Shown here: one piece after another, positions 9,118-17,818 of the stretch
Numbering within the stretch: the stretch's first letter is position 1
Layout of the letters: every line of letters begins with the position of its first letter
Assembly (NCBI RefSeq): GCF_008329965.1
Contig: NZ_CP036150.1
Coordinates: 2,832,439 to 2,896,438, forward strand
DNA length: 64,000 nt
Reading direction: 5' to 3'
DNA from: Oceanispirochaeta crateris
Lineage (GTDB): Bacteria; Spirochaetota; Spirochaetia; DSM-2461
Program-made: the position numbers and the translations under genes
The notes under the pieces: generated by a model
The model's input: the letters and a program-made list of their open reading frames with translations, nothing else
The model's database searches: none
What the model was told of the DNA's origin: nothing

Positions 9118-11322
9118 ATGGATCTTTTTCAATCATCTCCCCAGAATGAACCACTCGCCGCCAGAATGCGCCCTCGGAATCTGGACGAATACATAGGTCA
9201 GGACCACATCGTCGGAAAAGGCCGTCTCCTCAGGCGAGCCATCAAAGCGGACCAGCTCTCATCTCTTATTTTTTACGGTCCTCCGGGAACAGGAAAAACG
9301 ACTCTGGCCAGGGTCATAGCCGGAACAACAAGCAGCCGCTTTTTAAGCCTGAATGCGGTACTAAGCGGCGTGAAACAGGTCAGAGAAGCCATACATGAGG
9401 CTCAAGAACTGAGAGATATCCACGGAAGACGCACAATACTCTTTGTGGATGAAGTCCACCGCTGGAATAAGGCCCAACAGGATGCCCTCCTTCCCTGGGT
9501 AGAAAACGGAACGATTATCCTGGTGGGGGCCACCACTGAAAACCCGTATTTTGAAGTCAATTCCGCTCTTGTCAGCCGCAGCCGGATTTTCCAACTCAAA
9601 CAACTGCAGACCGAAGATCTCTTCGGAGTAGCCAGACAGGCAATCGCCGATAAAGAGAGGGGATACGGACGATGGAATGTTATATTTGATGAGGGAGCCC
9701 TGGAACACCTGGTAAAAACAGCCGACGGGGACGCCCGGAGTCTTTTAAATTCTCTTCAACTTGCCGTAGAAACAACACCAGACTCCTACCCTCCCCCGGA
9801 TAATACAGAAATTAGAATAAACCTTGAGACGGCTGAGGAAAGCATTCAAAAAAAAGTAGTCCTCTATGACAAAGAAGGAGACTACCACTATGACACCATC
9901 AGTGCATTTATAAAATCAATACGGGGCTCAGACCCTGATGCCGCCCTCTATTGGATGGCCAGAATGATCACGGCTGGTGAAGATCCCCGCTTCATCCTGA
10001 GAAGGATGATTATCTCTGCCGCAGAGGATATAGGCATGGCCGACCCCCAGGCCTTGGTCATGGTCAACGCTGCGGCTCAGGCCTTTGATAGAGTAGGACT
10101 TCCCGAAGGTCAGTTTCATTTAACCCAGGCGGCTATTTACCTGGCAACGGCACCTAAATCCAATTCGACCATGGCGTTTTTCGATGCGGTACAGGTCGTA
10201 GAAGAAGAGGCCGCCCGGGAAGTACCCAACCACCTGCGGGACCCCAGCAGAGACAAACACGGCTTTGGACACGGAGAGGGTTACAACTATCCCCATGCCT
10301 ACAGAGATCACTGGGTGGCCCAGGCCTACCTTCCCGAGGGACTCAAGGGCAGAATCTTTTACCAGCCGGCATCGCAGGGTTATGAAGCGGAAATTCAAAA
10401 AGAAGTCATCAGCCGGAGAGAACTCCAAATGGCAGCCATGATAGACGACTCTCTCGAAAATCTCACGTTTTCTCCTGGTGATAAAGAGCGGAACTCATGG
10501 ATGCGGCGAACCAGAGGCAGTGCGGGCCGATTTTTAGAAGAAATGCGTCAAAAGATGTTCAGCTTGCTCATGACGGAACGGCATCATAAAATTTTGGTTT
10601 GGCGGGAAAACAGCGGACTCCTACTGTGGGAAGCCTGGAGGCAGGTCCCGGAAGGGGGAGTCTGTGCATGGTTTCAAGATCAGAAAAACCTCAACCTCTG
10701 CGAACATTTCCTCCGCAGTCTTCCCGAATCAGAAAGGCCCGTGTTTTTTGGCGGCTCCTCTGAGCAAATGTTCCAGGATCTTGAAGAAATACAAAAACAA
10801 TACACCCGGTTCGAAGCCATCCTGACAAGGGACTGGATTTCAAGGATTCCCTTCAGTCAATGGGAAAAAGAATGGGAAGCATTAATAAAACTCTGCACAA
10901 CCGGGTCTGTCATCTTATGCAGTGAACCTCTTCCCGCACAAGGAAGCCGGCTCAGCGACTTTCTTCCAGAAGGTGAAAAGGATCTGGAATCATGGCTTCA
11001 TATCCGCAAGGCAGAACTCCAGGTGTACAACGAGGCCTATCCCGGATTGGCATCCCAGAAATCGGCAGTTGCCTTGCTGAAAAAATGCGGAGCCTCCTCA
11101 GTCGAGGCAGAATTGCTGAAAAACAGTGAGGAAAGGATTCTCAGCAGGGAACAGCTTACAAACTGGTTAAATACAGAGAAGGAAGGCAGTCTAGGGTTCA
11201 GAATGATGAAATCCCTGGGAAAAGAGAATATGAAAGCATACAGTGAGTACTGCCTAAACCATCTCGAAGGCGCTCATGTGAATTGGCAGAGTGTCCGAGT
11301 ACTGTTAAAGGCACAATTCTAA
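9118..11322 (+). CDS. rarA: RarA (MgsA) AAA+ ATPase with long C-terminal extension
   Basis: 734 residues against about 430-450 for ordinary RarA. Residues ~1-430 are the clamp-loader-like ATPase: opening MRPRNLDEYIGQDHIVG, Walker [12 protein letters not shown], Walker B ILFVDEVHRW, sensor GATTENPYF, and the C-terminal helical part ending in the HGFGHGEGYNYPHAYRDHW region. RarA acts at stalled replication forks. Residues ~435-734 are an extra domain without obvious motifs, known as an unnamed fused region in some RarA proteins. Its pattern (RENSGLLLWEAWRQVPEG) might be a degenerate Rossmann-type fold; this is only a guess. Confidence 0.92.
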   Translation: MDLFQSSPQNEPLAARMRPRNLDEYIGQDHIVGKGRLLRRAIKADQLSSLIFYGPPGTGKTTLARVIAGTTSSRFLSLNAVLSGVKQVREAIHEAQELRDIHGRRTILFVDEVHRWNKAQQDALLPWVENGTIILVGATTENPYFEVNSALVSRSRIFQLKQLQTEDLFGVARQAIADKERGYGRWNVIFDEGALEHLVKTADGDARSLLNSLQLAVETTPDSYPPPDNTEIRINLETAEESIQKKVVLYDKEGDYHYDTISAFIKSIRGSDPDAALYWMARMITAGEDPRFILRRMIISAAEDIGMADPQALVMVNAAAQAFDRVGLPEGQFHLTQAAIYLATAPKSNSTMAFFDAVQVVEEEAAREVPNHLRDPSRDKHGFGHGEGYNYPHAYRDHWVAQAYLPEGLKGRIFYQPASQGYEAEIQKEVISRRELQMAAMIDDSLENLTFSPGDKERNSWMRRTRGSAGRFLEEMRQKMFSLLMTERHHKILVWRENSGLLLWEAWRQVPEGGVCAWFQDQKNLNLCEHFLRSLPESERPVFFGGSSEQMFQDLEEIQKQYTRFEAILTRDWISRIPFSQWEKEWEALIKLCTTGSVILCSEPLPAQGSRLSDFLPEGEKDLESWLHIRKAELQVYNEAYPGLASQKSAVALLKKCGASSVEAELLKNSEERILSREQLTNWLNTEKEGSLGFRMMKSLGKENMKAYSEYCLNHLEGAHVNWQSVRVLLKAQF

Positions 11323-11409: not shown

Positions 11410-11440
11410 TTGACAAAAACACTCTTTTATATAATTATAC
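11410..11440 (+). promoter_or_regulatory. Probable tRNA-cluster promoter
   Basis: A perfect -35 TTGACA (11410-11415) precedes an AT-rich -10 area (TATAATTATAC, 11430-11440). The exact -10 register is unclear because the perfect TATAAT is only 14 bases from the -35. It lies 19 bases before tRNA-His. Confidence 0.55.
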
Positions 11441-11458: not shown

Positions 11459-11532
11459 GGTGAATGTAGTTCAGTCGGTAGAGCACCAGATTGTGGTTCT
11501 GGTTGTCGCGGGTTCGAGCCCCGTCATTCACC
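11459..11532 (+). tRNA. tRNA-His (GTG)
   Basis: Cloverleaf with acceptor GTGAATG/CATTCAC plus the extra 5' G (G-1) opposite discriminator C, a histidine hallmark. Anticodon stem CCAGA/TCTGG with anticodon GTG. T arm GGTTCGAGCC. No encoded CCA. Confidence 0.95.
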
Positions 11533-11543
11533 CTGTTTTTTTT

Positions 11544-11617
11544 GCGTCCATAGCTCAGCTGGATAGAGTTCCGGACTTCGAATCCGTGGGTCGCAGGTTC
11601 GAATCCTGCTGGACGTA
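11544..11617 (+). tRNA. tRNA-Arg (TCG)
   Basis: Acceptor GCGTCCA/TGGACGT, D arm GCTC/GAGT, anticodon loop CTTCGAA giving TCG, T arm GCAGG/CCTGC. The outer anticodon-stem pair is a C-T mismatch. The TCG anticodon reads CGA and, by wobble, other CGN codons. No encoded CCA. Confidence 0.92.
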
Positions 11618-11702
11618 TACAAACATCGATAAAAGGCAATTGGAATTATCCGTTGCCTCGATGTTTAATAACCAGTCTTTGGATTGGTTGGTTTTCATAC
11701 CA

Positions 11703-11775
11703 GGGCCGTTAGCTCAGCTGGTAGAGCAGCAGACTCTTAATCTGCGGGTCAAAGGTTCGATCCCTTTACGGCTCA
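11703..11775 (+). tRNA. tRNA-Lys (CTT)
   Basis: Acceptor GGGCCGT/ACGGCTC, anticodon stem GCAGA/TCTGC with loop CTCTTAA giving CTT. T arm AAAGG/CCTTT. Reads AAG. Confidence 0.95.
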
Positions 11776-11785
11776 TTTTTTTTAT

Positions 11786-11866
11786 GCGAGAGTGGTGGAA
11801 TTGGTAGACACGCTGGTCTTAGGAACCAGTGCCTTCGGTATAAGGGTTCGAGTCCCTTCTCTCGTA
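11786..11866 (+). tRNA. tRNA-Leu (TAG)
   Basis: Class II tRNA with a long variable arm (GTGCCTTCGGTAT). Acceptor GCGAGAG/CTCTCGT, anticodon stem CTGGT/ACCAG with anticodon TAG. Reads CUA and related CUN codons. Confidence 0.95.
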
Positions 11867-11875
11867 TCAATAAAT

Positions 11876-11947
11876 GCGAAAGTAGCTCAGTGGTAGAGCT
11901 CGACCTTGCCAAGGTCGATGTCGCGGGTTCAAGTCCCGTCTTTCGCT
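11876..11947 (+). tRNA. tRNA-Gly (GCC)
   Basis: Acceptor GCGAAAG/CTTTCGC, anticodon stem CGACC/GGTCG with anticodon GCC, T arm GCGGG/CCCGT. Last of the five-tRNA cluster; all lack encoded CCA. Confidence 0.95.
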
Positions 11948-11990: not shown

Positions 11991-12019
11991 TCGACAGATG
12001 ATGGAATTTGTTTTATACT
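11991..12019 (+). promoter_or_regulatory. Promoter of the tig-clpP-clpX-lon leader
   Basis: TCGACA (11991-11996), a 17-base spacer and TATACT (12014-12019): five of six matches at each hexamer. Predicted start near 12025-12026, directly before the leader hairpins. Confidence 0.65.
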
Positions 12020-12025
12020 TCGTCT

Positions 12026-12104
12026 GATGAAGCCTTGACCGCTTCGTCTAACGCTAAACGGAAGGTGAGGACGATCTGGGTGTTATCCGGGTCGTCTTTT
12101 TTTT
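12026..12104 (+). promoter_or_regulatory. Structured leader or small RNA upstream of tig (possible attenuator)
   Basis: About 80 bases between the promoter and tig. GATGAAGC (12026-12033) pairs with GCTTCGTC (12041-12048). The same TCGTC (12044-12048) can instead pair with GACGA (12070-12074), which is the left arm of the terminator hairpin. A third option pairs CCTT (12033-12036) with AAGG (12062-12065). This anti-antiterminator, antiterminator and terminator layout suggests conditional read-through into tig. It could also be a free-standing small RNA. Folding was done by hand only. Confidence 0.55.
12070..12104 (+). terminator. Intrinsic terminator before tig
   Basis: GACGATCTGG (12070-12079) pairs with CCGGGTCGTC (12087-12096), including G-U pairs, around a 7-base loop. 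Eight T follow (12097-12104). No promoter fits in the 33 bases between it and the tig start, so tig expression seems to need read-through. Confidence 0.85.
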
Positions 12105-12137
12105 ATACCAAACATACCACTGAATAAGGATAGTGCT

Positions 12138-13481
12138 GTGATAACCAGTAAGAGTGTCGAAAAATTGGAAAACTCTGCCGTTAAACTTTCCCTGACTGTC
12201 GGAAAAGAACACGCAGCCACAGAGTACAACGAACTTCTGAGCACGTACACAAAAGAAGTACAGATTAAAGGATTCAGAAAAGGCAAAGTGCCTACTTCTG
12301 TCATTGAAAGAAAGTTTGGAGAAGGCATCCGACAGGAAGCCGCTGCCAACCTTATGGATAAGGCTCTCAAAGCTGCCATGGAAGATCTTGAAGAAAAACC
12401 TCTAGGGTATGATTATCCGGAAGTGCAGGGAGAACCTGTTCTCAACCCTGATGAAGATTTCACCTTTGAACTGGTTTATGACACATTCCCTGAAGTGAAG
12501 TTCGGAGAATACAAGGGAATCGAGATTGAAGAAAAACAGGTAAAGATCCTTAAAAAACATGAGAATATCGAACTGGAGAAAATCCAGGAACAGAATTCTG
12601 TAGTCATGGACAAAGCCGATGAAACAGTAGCCGATGACAATATTGTCACTATTGATTACTGCGAGATGAATGGCAAAGAAGAAATTGTAGATACAAAAAG
12701 AGAAGACTTCGTTTTCACAGTCGGTACGGGCTACAACCTGTATAAGATTGACAAACAGATCATCGGTATGAAGAAAGATGAAGAAAAGGTCATTTCTAAA
12801 AAATATAAAGAAGATTTCGAAAATAAAGACTTAGCCGGTCGATCAGTAAAATTGAAAGTGAAGGTAAAAGCTGTAAAAGAAAAACAGCTTCCCGATCTGG
12901 ATGACGAACTGGCTCAGGATGTAAATGAAAAGTTTGAAACCCTGGATGACCTGAGAAGCGACATCAAAAATCAGCTGAAGGAAAAAGCTGAAGCGAAAAT
13001 AAAGGGCGAAAAAGTAGAACAGCTCATGAACAAGCTGGTTGAAGAAAGTGACATTGTCCTTCCCCTTTCCATGATTAAGGCCGAACAGGAAAACAACTGG
13101 AAAAACTTTCTCCAGCAGTCCCAGACTCAGGAAGAGCAGATGCTTCAATTCCTGCAGATGCAGGGACAGACCAAAGAGCAGATGCTCGAGGCCTGGAAAG
13201 AGAATGCCATTAAAAGCTTGAAGTCTCAGCTGATTTTCAACAAGATTATTGAAGATGAAAAAATTGAAGCCACAGACGAAGAAATGGAAGCTGAAATTGT
13301 AAAACAGGCAGAAATGTACAACATGCCTGTGGAAGATCTCAAAAAATCATTTGGCGAAGCCGGCTTAAAAGAGTATCTTAGTAGTGATCTAAAACAGAAG
13401 AAGGTAGTTGATTTTCTGCTGGACAATGCTAAGATCAAAAAAAGTGCCGACAAGGTTGATTATACCGACCTGATGGCCTAA
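12138..13481 (+). CDS. tig: Trigger factor
   Basis: 447 residues, normal for trigger factor: ribosome-bound chaperone and peptidyl-prolyl isomerase for nascent chains. Seen: the ribosome-binding signature GFRKGKVPTSVIERKFG near residues 46-62, a central FKBP-like part (residues ~150-245) and a long helical C-terminal domain. GTG start at 12138 with TAAGGA upstream. First gene of the tig-clpP-clpX-lon cluster; a terminator-like hairpin sits in its leader. Confidence 0.95.
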   Translation: MITSKSVEKLENSAVKLSLTVGKEHAATEYNELLSTYTKEVQIKGFRKGKVPTSVIERKFGEGIRQEAAANLMDKALKAAMEDLEEKPLGYDYPEVQGEPVLNPDEDFTFELVYDTFPEVKFGEYKGIEIEEKQVKILKKHENIELEKIQEQNSVVMDKADETVADDNIVTIDYCEMNGKEEIVDTKREDFVFTVGTGYNLYKIDKQIIGMKKDEEKVISKKYKEDFENKDLAGRSVKLKVKVKAVKEKQLPDLDDELAQDVNEKFETLDDLRSDIKNQLKEKAEAKIKGEKVEQLMNKLVEESDIVLPLSMIKAEQENNWKNFLQQSQTQEEQMLQFLQMQGQTKEQMLEAWKENAIKSLKSQLIFNKIIEDEKIEATDEEMEAEIVKQAEMYNMPVEDLKKSFGEAGLKEYLSSDLKQKKVVDFLLDNAKIKKSADKVDYTDLMA

Positions 13482-13509: not shown

Positions 13510-14103
13510 ATGCATGTTCAGAATAACACCCTGGTACCTGTTGTTGTTGAGAGAACAGGAACAGGAGAACGGTCTTATGACATATATTCCCGCCTTCTAA
13601 AGGATAGAATTGTTTTTCTGGATGGTGAAATACACGATGTAACGGCTGACCTTGTGGTTGCTCAGCTTCTTTTCTTGGAGTCTGAAGACCCAGAAAAAGA
13701 CATAAATCTATACATAAACAGCCCCGGTGGTTCAGTAACTGCCGGGCTGGCTATTTACGATACGATGCAGCACATAAAGCCGGACGTTCAAACCATCTGT
13801 ATAGGACAGGCTGCTTCCATGGGAGCCGTACTCCTGGCAGGCGGTGCCCAAGGAAAAAGATATTGCCTACCCTCAGCACGTGTCATGATTCATCAGCCCT
13901 GGGGTGGTGTACAGGGTCAAGCCCGGGATATTGGCATTCAGGCCAGAGAAATCATCCGCCTCAAAAAGATGCTGATACAATATTTTGCAGACAATACGGG
14001 AAAAGGTTACGAAGAGATTGCTTCCGATATGGAACGTGACTTCTTCATGTCTGCAGAAGAGTCGGCCCAATATGGGATCACAGACAGCATTCTCAAGAGG
14101 TAA
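13510..14103 (+). CDS. clpP: ATP-dependent Clp protease proteolytic subunit ClpP
   Basis: 197 residues. Serine peptidase that forms the tetradecameric chamber fed by ClpX. Catalytic triad by motif: S103 in GQAASMGA, H128 in MIHQPWGG, D177 in [16 protein letters not shown] lies upstream of the ATG. It starts 28 bp after tig and ends 3 bp before clpX, so the genes form one operon. Confidence 0.97.
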
Positions 14104-14106
14104 AAG

Positions 14107-15393
14107 ATGGCTAGAACAAAAAGTAAAGAATTAAAAGTATGCTCCTTCTGCGGTAAACACTCCGATGTGGCCAAAAAATTGATTGCAGGCCCTGGAGTTT
14201 ATATATGTGATGAGTGTGTACAGGTTTGTAATAAAATCATGTCTGAAGAAGAAAATATTTCTTCTGACTTTGTAGATGACATACCCACCCCCAAAGAAAT
14301 CAAACAATACCTGGATGATTATGTCATTGGGCAGGAGTCTGCAAAGAGAACCCTCTCCGTTGGGGTTTACAACCATTACAAAAGAATCATGTTCAAAGAC
14401 AAGGTTTCCGGCGATGTAGAGCTGGAGAAGACAAACGTCCTCCTCATTGGTCCTACAGGAACGGGTAAGACTCTTTTGGCTAAGACTCTCGCCAGAAAGC
14501 TGAAGGTTCCCTTCGCCATTGCCGATGCAACAACCCTGACCGAAGCTGGATATGTAGGAGAAGATGTTGAAAACATACTCCTGAAGTTGATCCAGGCAGC
14601 TGGTAACAACATTGCGGCAGCCGAAAGAGGGATCATCTATATTGATGAGATCGATAAAATCGCCCGTAAGGGTGAGAATGTGTCTATTACCAGAGACGTC
14701 TCAGGTGAGGGCGTTCAACAGGCTCTACTGAAAATCATCGAAGGTTCGACTGCGTCTGTCCCCCCCCAGGGTGGCAGAAAGCATCCTAATCAGGAAATGC
14801 TTAAAATAGACACATCCAACATCCTGATTATCTGTGGTGGAGCCTTTGTCGGCTTAGACAAGATCATTGAATCCAGAGTGAGTCAACAGCCCATGGGATT
14901 TGGTTCTGACGTTAGAAAAACAGGTGATAAGAATATGGCGCAGCTGTTCAAGCAGATGCACCCCGACGATCTTGTCCGCTTTGGTCTTATCCCTGAGTTT
15001 ATTGGACGACTTCCCATCCAGGTCAGCCTGGATACTCTGAAGAAAGAAGATTTAATCAGAGTTCTCACAGAACCCAGAAACTCTATCATCAGACAGTTTG
15101 AGGAATCACTGAAACTGGATGACACAGAGCTTGCCTTTGAAGAGGCAGCCATAGATGCCATTGCGGAAAAAGCCCTGGAAAGAAAAACAGGTGCCCGTGG
15201 TATTCGTTCCATAGTCGAAACAGTTTTGTTGGATATTATGTATGATCTGCCTTCCATGGAGGGAAAAAAGAAGGTCATCGTCACCAGGGATGTCATTAAG
15301 AATGATGCGTTGCCTGTGATTCTCACAGATCCTGACAAAATTGAGGCACCATGGGAAAATGCACTTCATGAGAATAAACAAATCACAGCTTAG
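14107..15393 (+). CDS. clpX: ATP-dependent Clp protease ATP-binding subunit ClpX
   Basis: 428 residues. AAA+ unfoldase that selects substrates and feeds ClpP. The N-terminal zinc-binding domain has CSFCGK and CDECVQVC. The ATPase has Walker A GPTGTGKT and Walker [10 protein letters not shown]. The IGF-type loop that docks on ClpP is present in variant form in the segment near [14 protein letters not shown]. The 3' end overlaps the start of lon. Confidence 0.97.
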
Positions 15394-17818
15394 TTTTCGT
15401 AAAGAGGAGCTCCCTGTCATTATCCTTCCGGATACTGTCATATTTCCTTATACGGTAGCTCCCTTTTTCCTTGCAGATGCTGTGTCCACCAGAGCTGTGG
15501 ATGAAGCAATGAAGGGGAAAAGGGATATTTTCCTTGCTTTTCAGAAAGAAGAAGCAGATTCAACCATCCAGAAAAAACATCTCTACCCCACCGGGACTGT
15601 AGCCCACATACTGCAGGTTCTTAAACTTCCTGATGGTAATTCCAGATTGCTGGTCGAAGGACGCAGTAAGGGACAGATTCTAAAATTAATCAAAAAAAAA
15701 GATATCCTGATGATCCAGTACAAAAGCCTTGTGGAGCACAGAGAGATTGGAAGAACTCTTGCTATCGGAATGGAAACACTCCAGGAAACTTTTTATGAAT
15801 ACGCACGCAAAAACAAAAAAATCACACGCGAAATAAAAACCCAGGTTGAACAAGCCCAAACACCTGAAAAGCTCATAGGCCTCATTGCATCCCAGATGTC
15901 CATTCCAACCGCAGATAAAATCGGGCTTCTTGAGATGGATAGTCCAGGGGAAAAAATCAACAAGCTTACTGAAGTCGTGCAGCTCGAGATTGAAAAGAGC
16001 ACGCTGAAGCAGGACATATCCGGCCGAGTCCGTAAAAAAATGGAGAAGACCCAAAAAGAGTATTTCCTCAATGAACAACTCAAGGAAATTAACAAAGAAC
16101 TGGGTAACTCAAACCAGGACGATCCCTCGGGAGCCATCGAACTTGAAAACCGGATTAACAGCAAGGGTATGCCCACAGACATCCATGAAAAAGCCCTGAA
16201 AGAGGTCAAACGCCTTACCCGCCTCCAGCCCATGAGTCCCGAGTCGGGTGTTCTAAGAACCTATCTTGAATGGCTTGCTGATCTCCCCTGGAGTGAAGAA
16301 TCGGATGACCGAATGAATCTGGCCAGGGCAGCCAAGGTCCTGGATGAAGATCACTATAACTTAAAAAAAGCCAAAGACAGAATCCTTGACTACATTGCAG
16401 TAAGGCAGATTAGAGAAAAACTCAAAGGACCCATCCTCTGCTTTGTGGGTCCCCCGGGGACAGGAAAAACATCCCTGGGACGTTCTGTTGCCAGGGCCCT
16501 CAACCGAGAATTTGTAAGGATCTCCCTCGGGGGGGTCCGGGATGAAGCCGAAATTCGGGGGCACCGGAAAACATATGTTGGAGCACTGCCCGGTAAGATC
16601 ATTCAATCAATTAAAAAAGCGGGGACTACAAATCCCGTTTTTCTTCTGGATGAAATAGATAAGATGAGTAATGATTTCAGGGGTGACCCCTCAGCAGCTC
16701 TTTTGGAAGTATTGGATCCTGAACAAAACAGCTCCTTTACCGATCACTACCTGGAAGTCCCCTATGACCTGTCCAAGGTTATGTTTATCACCACAGCGAA
16801 CTCTCTTCACAATGTTCCCCGTCCCCTGGTTGATAGGATGGAAGTGATTGAAATTCCAGGATACACAGAAATAGAGAAACTACGCATAGCCAAGGGCTTT
16901 ATCATTCCCAAACAGATGAAAGAAAACGGAATGGACTCAAGCAACCTGAATATCGGAGATGATGCCCTACAGACAATCATTCGAAATTACACCATGGAAT
17001 CCGGAGTGAGAAACCTTGAACGCCAAATAGGACAAGTCATTCGCAAGATTACAAGGGAAGCCATAGACAATTACCAGAAGCGCCCCGGTGGAAACAACGT
17101 ACACACGGCCAGGATTCACAAATATCAGGATTACTTCGGAACTATTGAAAATAAAGCTGACAACTTACCAGATCTTTCCCTGTTGAACCTGCAGGTACGC
17201 GGAAAGGACGTTATAAACTACCTTGGGAATCCTCCCATACAAGATGAGGATAGTGACAGGAGGGACCGTCCGGGTCTGGCAACCGGCATGGCCTGGACTG
17301 AGGTTGGCGGAAGAGTTCTCCCCGTGGAAGTGAGCCTCCTCAAAGGAGATGGCAAACTCATCCTCACTGGAAAACTAGGGGATGTCATGAAGGAGAGTGC
17401 CCAGATAGCCCTCTCTTACCTAAGAGCCAACGCAGAAGAATTCGGTATTGAATCCAACTTTCAGAAGGAATATGATATCCATATTCATGTGCCTGAAGGT
17501 GCCATACCAAAGGATGGACCTTCCGCGGGAATTACCATAACAGCAGCCCTGCTCTCAGCTCTTAAAAAGACGCCCCTGATTAGCTCGCTGGCCATGACCG
17601 GGGAAATAACACTCACCGACCGCTTACTCCCTATCGGAGGAGTGAAAGAGAAAGTTATGGCAGCCCACCGGAATAAGTGCCGAATCATACTGCTGCCAGA
17701 AAAAAATAAAAAAGATCAACTGGATCTGCCTCAGGAAATAAGGGATGATCTTCGTTTTATCTTCAGCTCTTCCGTCAAAGAGGCTCTGGAACAGCTCTTT
17801 CCGGAAGGGACATTTTAG
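15368..17818 (+). CDS. lon: ATP-dependent protease Lon
   Basis: About 816 residues. Homo-oligomeric AAA+ serine protease degrading misfolded and regulatory proteins. N-terminal substrate domain opens with [20 protein letters not shown]. Walker A is [11 protein letters not shown] and Walker B is [10 protein letters not shown]. The C-terminal protease has the catalytic S719 in [10 protein letters not shown] and the lysine in [12 protein letters not shown]. The frame reaches a TTG at 15341, but ATG 15368 (or 15359) is better placed behind GGGAAA. Either way it overlaps the clpX end by 26-35 bp, implying translational coupling. Confidence 0.96.

Follow-up and report, generated by a model that had tools for sequence, protein, structure and literature searches.

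The window, the whole 64,000-nucleotide stretch of DNA analysed here, belongs to a genome consisting of a single contig of 4,012,482 bases. The region under study carries an array of five tRNA genes, a promoter followed by a stem-loop and a short linker, an intrinsic terminator, and the genes tig (trigger factor), clpP, clpX and lon (Table 1). Upstream of the array, at 9118–11322, lies a RarA-type AAA ATPase fusion gene (NF009881).

Table 1. Features of the tRNA–tig region, in coordinates of the window
Feature	Position	Strand	Basis or detail
Putative tRNA-array promoter, TTGACA-17-AATTAT	11410–11438	+	Consensus scan, 10/12
tRNA array His, Arg, Lys, Leu, Gly	11460–11947	+	ARAGORN, Rfam tRNA
tRNA-His	11460–11533		
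tRNA-Arg	11543–11618		
tRNA-Lys	11703–11775		
tRNA-Leu	11785–11868		
tRNA-Gly	11876–11947		
Genus-specific promoter, TCGACA-17-TATACT	11991–12019	+	10/12 consensus matches
5′ stem-loop at predicted transcript start	12026–12048	+	GATGAAGC(CTTGACC)GCTTCGTC, 8 bp
Conserved linker TAACGCTAAACGGAAGGT, with Shine-Dalgarno-like GGAAGGTGA	12049–12066	+	Near-invariant within the genus
Intrinsic terminator	12067–12104	+	Stem 12067–12099, T-run 12097–12104 (T8), 15 pairs
Shine-Dalgarno sequence of tig, AAGGA	12126–12130	+	Read from sequence
tig, GTG start	12138–13481	+	TIGR00115
clpP	13510–14103	+	TIGR00493
clpX	14107–15393	+	TIGR00382, NF003745
lon, start uncertain (TTG 15341 or ATG shortly after)	15341–17818	+	TIGR00763, ORF list

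A preliminary description of this DNA had reported the second promoter, the 5′ hairpin, the terminator and a distance of 33 nt between the T-run and tig, and all four are confirmed by our analysis. The hairpin has a folding energy of −9.1 kcal/mol, which is equalled by 0.5% of shuffles, and folding of a 121-nt stretch gives z = −3.67. The terminator has the GC-rich stem followed by a T-run that defines the intrinsic type.

We compared the regions upstream of tig in about 60 genomes of the class Spirochaetia and in 80 named contigs, which include Treponema, Sediminispirochaeta, Marispirochaeta and Brucepastera; a few genomes are counted twice because they occur in both collections (e.g. L066 = G017, L067 = G013 and L096 = G016). 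In about 100 loci we observe the same order of tRNA array (His/Arg/Lys/Leu/Gly), terminator and tig. The synteny between tRNA genes and tig is conserved in nearly all loci of the class, with tRNA-Leu and/or tRNA-Gly upstream of tig, these being usually preceded in turn by His, Arg and Lys. We identified 103 confident terminators, 91 of which are found behind tRNA-Gly outside the window's genus. In these 91 loci the stem starts directly behind the last tRNA, 1–24 nt (median 7) past tRNA-Gly. In two genera of the same family, g3 and g4, this distance is 10–15 nt, and neither a promoter nor a hairpin lies between. Spacings of 79–413 nt are found only in the window's genus, in all six of its genomes. 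Five Treponema-type loci (L100, L131, L133, L138 and L141) have two consecutive tRNA-Gly genes before the terminator. No terminator was found in G044 (Borrelia-like), G034, G039, G031, G015, G022, L134 and L142, where the last tRNA is separated from tig by 24–81 nt; other relatives that have none show longer tRNA–tig spacers.

A covariation test on 40 diverse terminator sequences revealed that 98.2% of the cells in the stem are paired and that 8 of 11 pairs have changed on both sides. Cells changed on both sides number 42, against 13.7 in shuffles, and two pairs never change. The sequence itself is also conserved, with GCGAT present in 73 of the 103 left arms. With a covariance model trained on these loci, whose absolute scores are therefore partly circular, the terminator reaches 43.9 bits in the window's genome and the next match 24.4; it also ranks first in most of the genomes where it is present. 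The idea that it is one of many similar terminators was rejected, as its pattern matches once in the genome and the model gives it a lead of about 20 bits. In addition, no further terminator detected in the window has CGAT in its left arm.

Strong covariation, conservation of the sequence and a single strong match in each genome together indicate that 12067–12104 is, on comparative evidence, ancestrally the terminator belonging to the His-Arg-Lys-Leu-Gly tRNA operon, and that it has been retained at this position in most of Spirochaetia. The preliminary description had missed this class-wide relation to the upstream array, which implies an origin of the element other than as a tig leader. Furthermore, the stem sequence is kept even where tig lies at least 100 nt away, suggesting that the constraint probably comes from the tRNA side and not from tig.

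In five of the six genomes of the genus, a promoter whose predicted start falls at a stem-loop, and an invariant linker, are located between tRNA-Gly and the terminator. The promoter scores 11.5 in the window with a rough sigma-70 matrix. Its hexamers and spacing are identical in G001, G002 and G004, a weaker version (AGAACA-17-TAAACT) is found in G003, and G005 has none. With the last base of the −10 box at 12019, the predicted start lies about 7 bases further on, at the first base of the hairpin; a transcript from 12026 to the end of the T-run at 12104 would be ~79 nt long. In the hairpin, 97.5% of the cells are paired among the five genomes that have it and two pairs have changed on both sides, and the loop varies in length and sequence. 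The covariation is suggestive: with five sequences it is not above that of shuffles, though it is better than in every slid version. The linker is near-invariant in the genus, the adjoining sequence diverges, and the CGCTAAACGGAAGGTGA part of the linker is also present in G005. This genome has neither promoter nor 5′ hairpin and keeps the linker, the terminator and tig in the same place.

The interval 12010–12110 is 89–93% identical to the window in four congeners. This is far above the 39–59% identity at fourfold-degenerate sites of tig between congeners, indicating that promoter, 5′ hairpin, linker and terminator are under strong selection in five of the six genomes. Hardly any variation is seen in the −10 box, at the predicted transcript start, in the left 5′-hairpin arm, in the linker, or in the terminator and its loop.

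Several further observations concern the DNA between tRNA-Gly and the terminator. By eye, the genus linker CGTCTAACGCTAAACGGAAGG (12049–12066) resembles the 3′ end and trailer of tRNA-Gly in genus g3, CGTCTTTCGCTTAACTAAAGG, which looks like a duplication of the tRNA-Gly end by the insert. In L038, the locus of G005, two other inverted repeats seen by eye (TGTCCGG..CCGGGACA and TTCCGTTT..AAACGGAA) replace the promoter and 5′ hairpin, the conserved linker forming the right arm of the second. An insert of ~135 bp lies between tRNA-Gly and the promoter in G003 (L035:619–753) and in G002 (G002:C273:5141–5270, L034). At its start stands the tRNA-Gly T-arm in reverse complement, and at its end the 3′ end of tRNA-Gly is copied. 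Matches to this insert, a dispersed repeat that is partly in tandem, number 11 in G003, 4 in G002 and G005, and 1 in the window's genome. As to its nature, one may guess at a small tRNA-targeting element or an attC-like site. An origin of the leader insert from this repeat was rejected: the repeat is real, but the promoter and hairpin of the window do not resemble it.

Between the terminator and tig, no convincing promoter was found in the window with the rough sigma-70 matrix, where a score of at least 6 was taken as promoter-like; the best site scores 3.2 (p = 0.82). The earlier claim that there is no room for another promoter is nearly right; it needs amending for a −10-like TATACC at 12104–12109, directly after the T-run, whose best −35 is very poor. 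Promoter-like sites in this interval occur in 30 of the 44 loci whose gap is at least 75 nt and in 11 of the 42 where it is at most 50 nt, a comparison in which gap length favours the long ones. Without a convincing promoter, read-through of the terminator is the simplest route into tig, and for the short-gap species as well it seems the most economical reading. We also count the terminator-less relatives with 24–81 nt between tRNA and tig in favour of read-through.

Our preferred explanation, to which we give slightly better than even confidence, combines the tRNA–terminator ancestry with an added promoter and predicts that the tig cluster is fed by terminator read-through. Oceanispirochaeta would have gained DNA between tRNA-Gly and the terminator, carrying a sigma-70-type promoter whose transcript would begin with the stem-loop at its first base. 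Polymerase from this promoter would mostly stop at 12104, yielding the ~79-nt RNA, and tig-clpP-clpX-lon would be transcribed by the polymerases that pass the terminator and by those that leak through from the tRNA promoter. The level of the cluster would then be the product of promoter strength and a largely constitutive terminator leak, and the 5′ stem would most likely protect the 5′ end. Judging from the sequence, read-through here most likely comes mainly from the added promoter, with the tRNA promoter as a possible further source. The linker and loop are more invariant than leak and 5′ protection would need, which hints at a further function. G005, with tig in the same place and no promoter, counts against this explanation.

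The preliminary description had likewise proposed that read-through sets transcription of the cluster, governed by a protein, by translation or by temperature. The selected leader and the missing promoter after the terminator uphold the first part, whereas the fold on which it was built does not survive, and sequence analysis of the locus gave no pointer to a protein, translation, temperature or ligand as a trigger. Reading of the region by eye showed no CIRCE-like heat-shock operator. A leader peptide (GTG 12065/12080 in frame to TAA 12127) was considered and rejected, as its end differs between congeners.

The predicted ~79-nt RNA (12026–12104) could instead be mainly a free regulatory sRNA, with tig expressed separately. 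Its layout of 5′ stem, single-stranded seed UAACGCUAAACGGAAGGUGAG and terminator, its own promoter, and a linker conserved between diverging neighbours are all compatible with this possibility. We nevertheless regard it as doubtful, given that G005 retains the linker although it has no promoter for such an RNA, that conservation of the terminator sequence is older than the promoter, and that no Rfam match was found.

A weak promoter of tig itself is unlikely; it would overlap the T-run, use TATACC as its −10 and start transcription near 12116. TATACC is kept behind the T-run in all six congeners and is found in some relatives (G016, G020, G049 and L108), but it has no −35, its final base is not T, it is not class-wide, and the score of the interval is poor, as given above. 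A wider reading, which we consider speculative and improbable, would make the class-wide, sequence-conserved hairpin behind tRNA-Gly more than a terminator, namely a trailer RNA or a protein-binding element that tunes read-through. The tRNA supply and trigger factor/Clp/Lon would then form one transcription unit across Spirochaetia, and in Oceanispirochaeta the hairpin would have become an independent RNA equipped with a promoter and seed of its own.

Regulated attenuation is a quite improbable alternative. Here the linker UAACGCU (12049–12055) would pair with the terminator apex GGUGUUA (12078–12084), or the left arm would be blocked by a ribosome or a protein at GGAAGGUGA, and read-through would answer a signal. 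All 7 of 7 pairs are possible in the five genomes with the hairpin, and the helix shows up in nascent-chain folds; however, both sides hardly vary, so that conservation cannot test the pairing, the terminator is far more stable (−31.4 kcal/mol for the whole), and the switch proposed earlier is not conserved. That switch, a three-way fold with TCGTC (12044–12048) and GACGA (12070–12074) as antiterminator, is almost certainly wrong: the letters pair in the window, but the ensemble probability is 0, the constrained fold reaches −20.6 against −31.4 kcal/mol, a cost of about 11 kcal/mol, and in the other four hairpin-bearing genomes the right hairpin arm ends in TCATC or CCATC instead of TCGTC, giving 3–4 of 5 pairs, so that the conserved, mutually exclusive pairing of an attenuator is not seen.

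Arrays of tRNA genes that lead into a protein gene are a known kind of system, as are terminators in operon leaders. In E. coli, the tRNA operon thrU-tyrU-glyT-thrT continues into tufB. The present locus likewise has tRNA genes directly upstream of a same-strand protein gene, making shared transcription likely, but an intrinsic terminator lies between, this genus has a second promoter, and co-transcription is a prediction. The order of promoter, 5′ structure, terminator and operon is reminiscent of the leader terminators and attenuators of bacterial operons; here, in contrast, no conserved antiterminator was found, and the terminator predates the leader, being part of the tRNA operon. The 3′ETS-leuZ of E. 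coli, a tRNA trailer RNA, is also a conserved trailer with a terminator behind a tRNA, whereas the putative RNA of this genus would have its own promoter. The same gene cluster is known as the tig-clpP-clpX-lon-2 region of Borrelia burgdorferi (PMC2777506); unlike the window, the Borrelia-like G044 has tRNAs 57 nt before tig and no terminator. A literature search limited to open-licence papers found none on the tRNA–terminator–tig arrangement.

The comparison corrects a tempting riboswitch-like reading of the locus. Its chief interest is class-wide: a terminator is conserved in sequence and not in fold alone, and a tRNA array, its terminator, and the genes of the main cytosolic chaperone and proteases stay together across a bacterial class. 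Natural variation in the presence of the terminator or the promoter makes shared control testable. If the read-through reading is true, tRNA supply and protein quality control would share a control point in spirochaetes.
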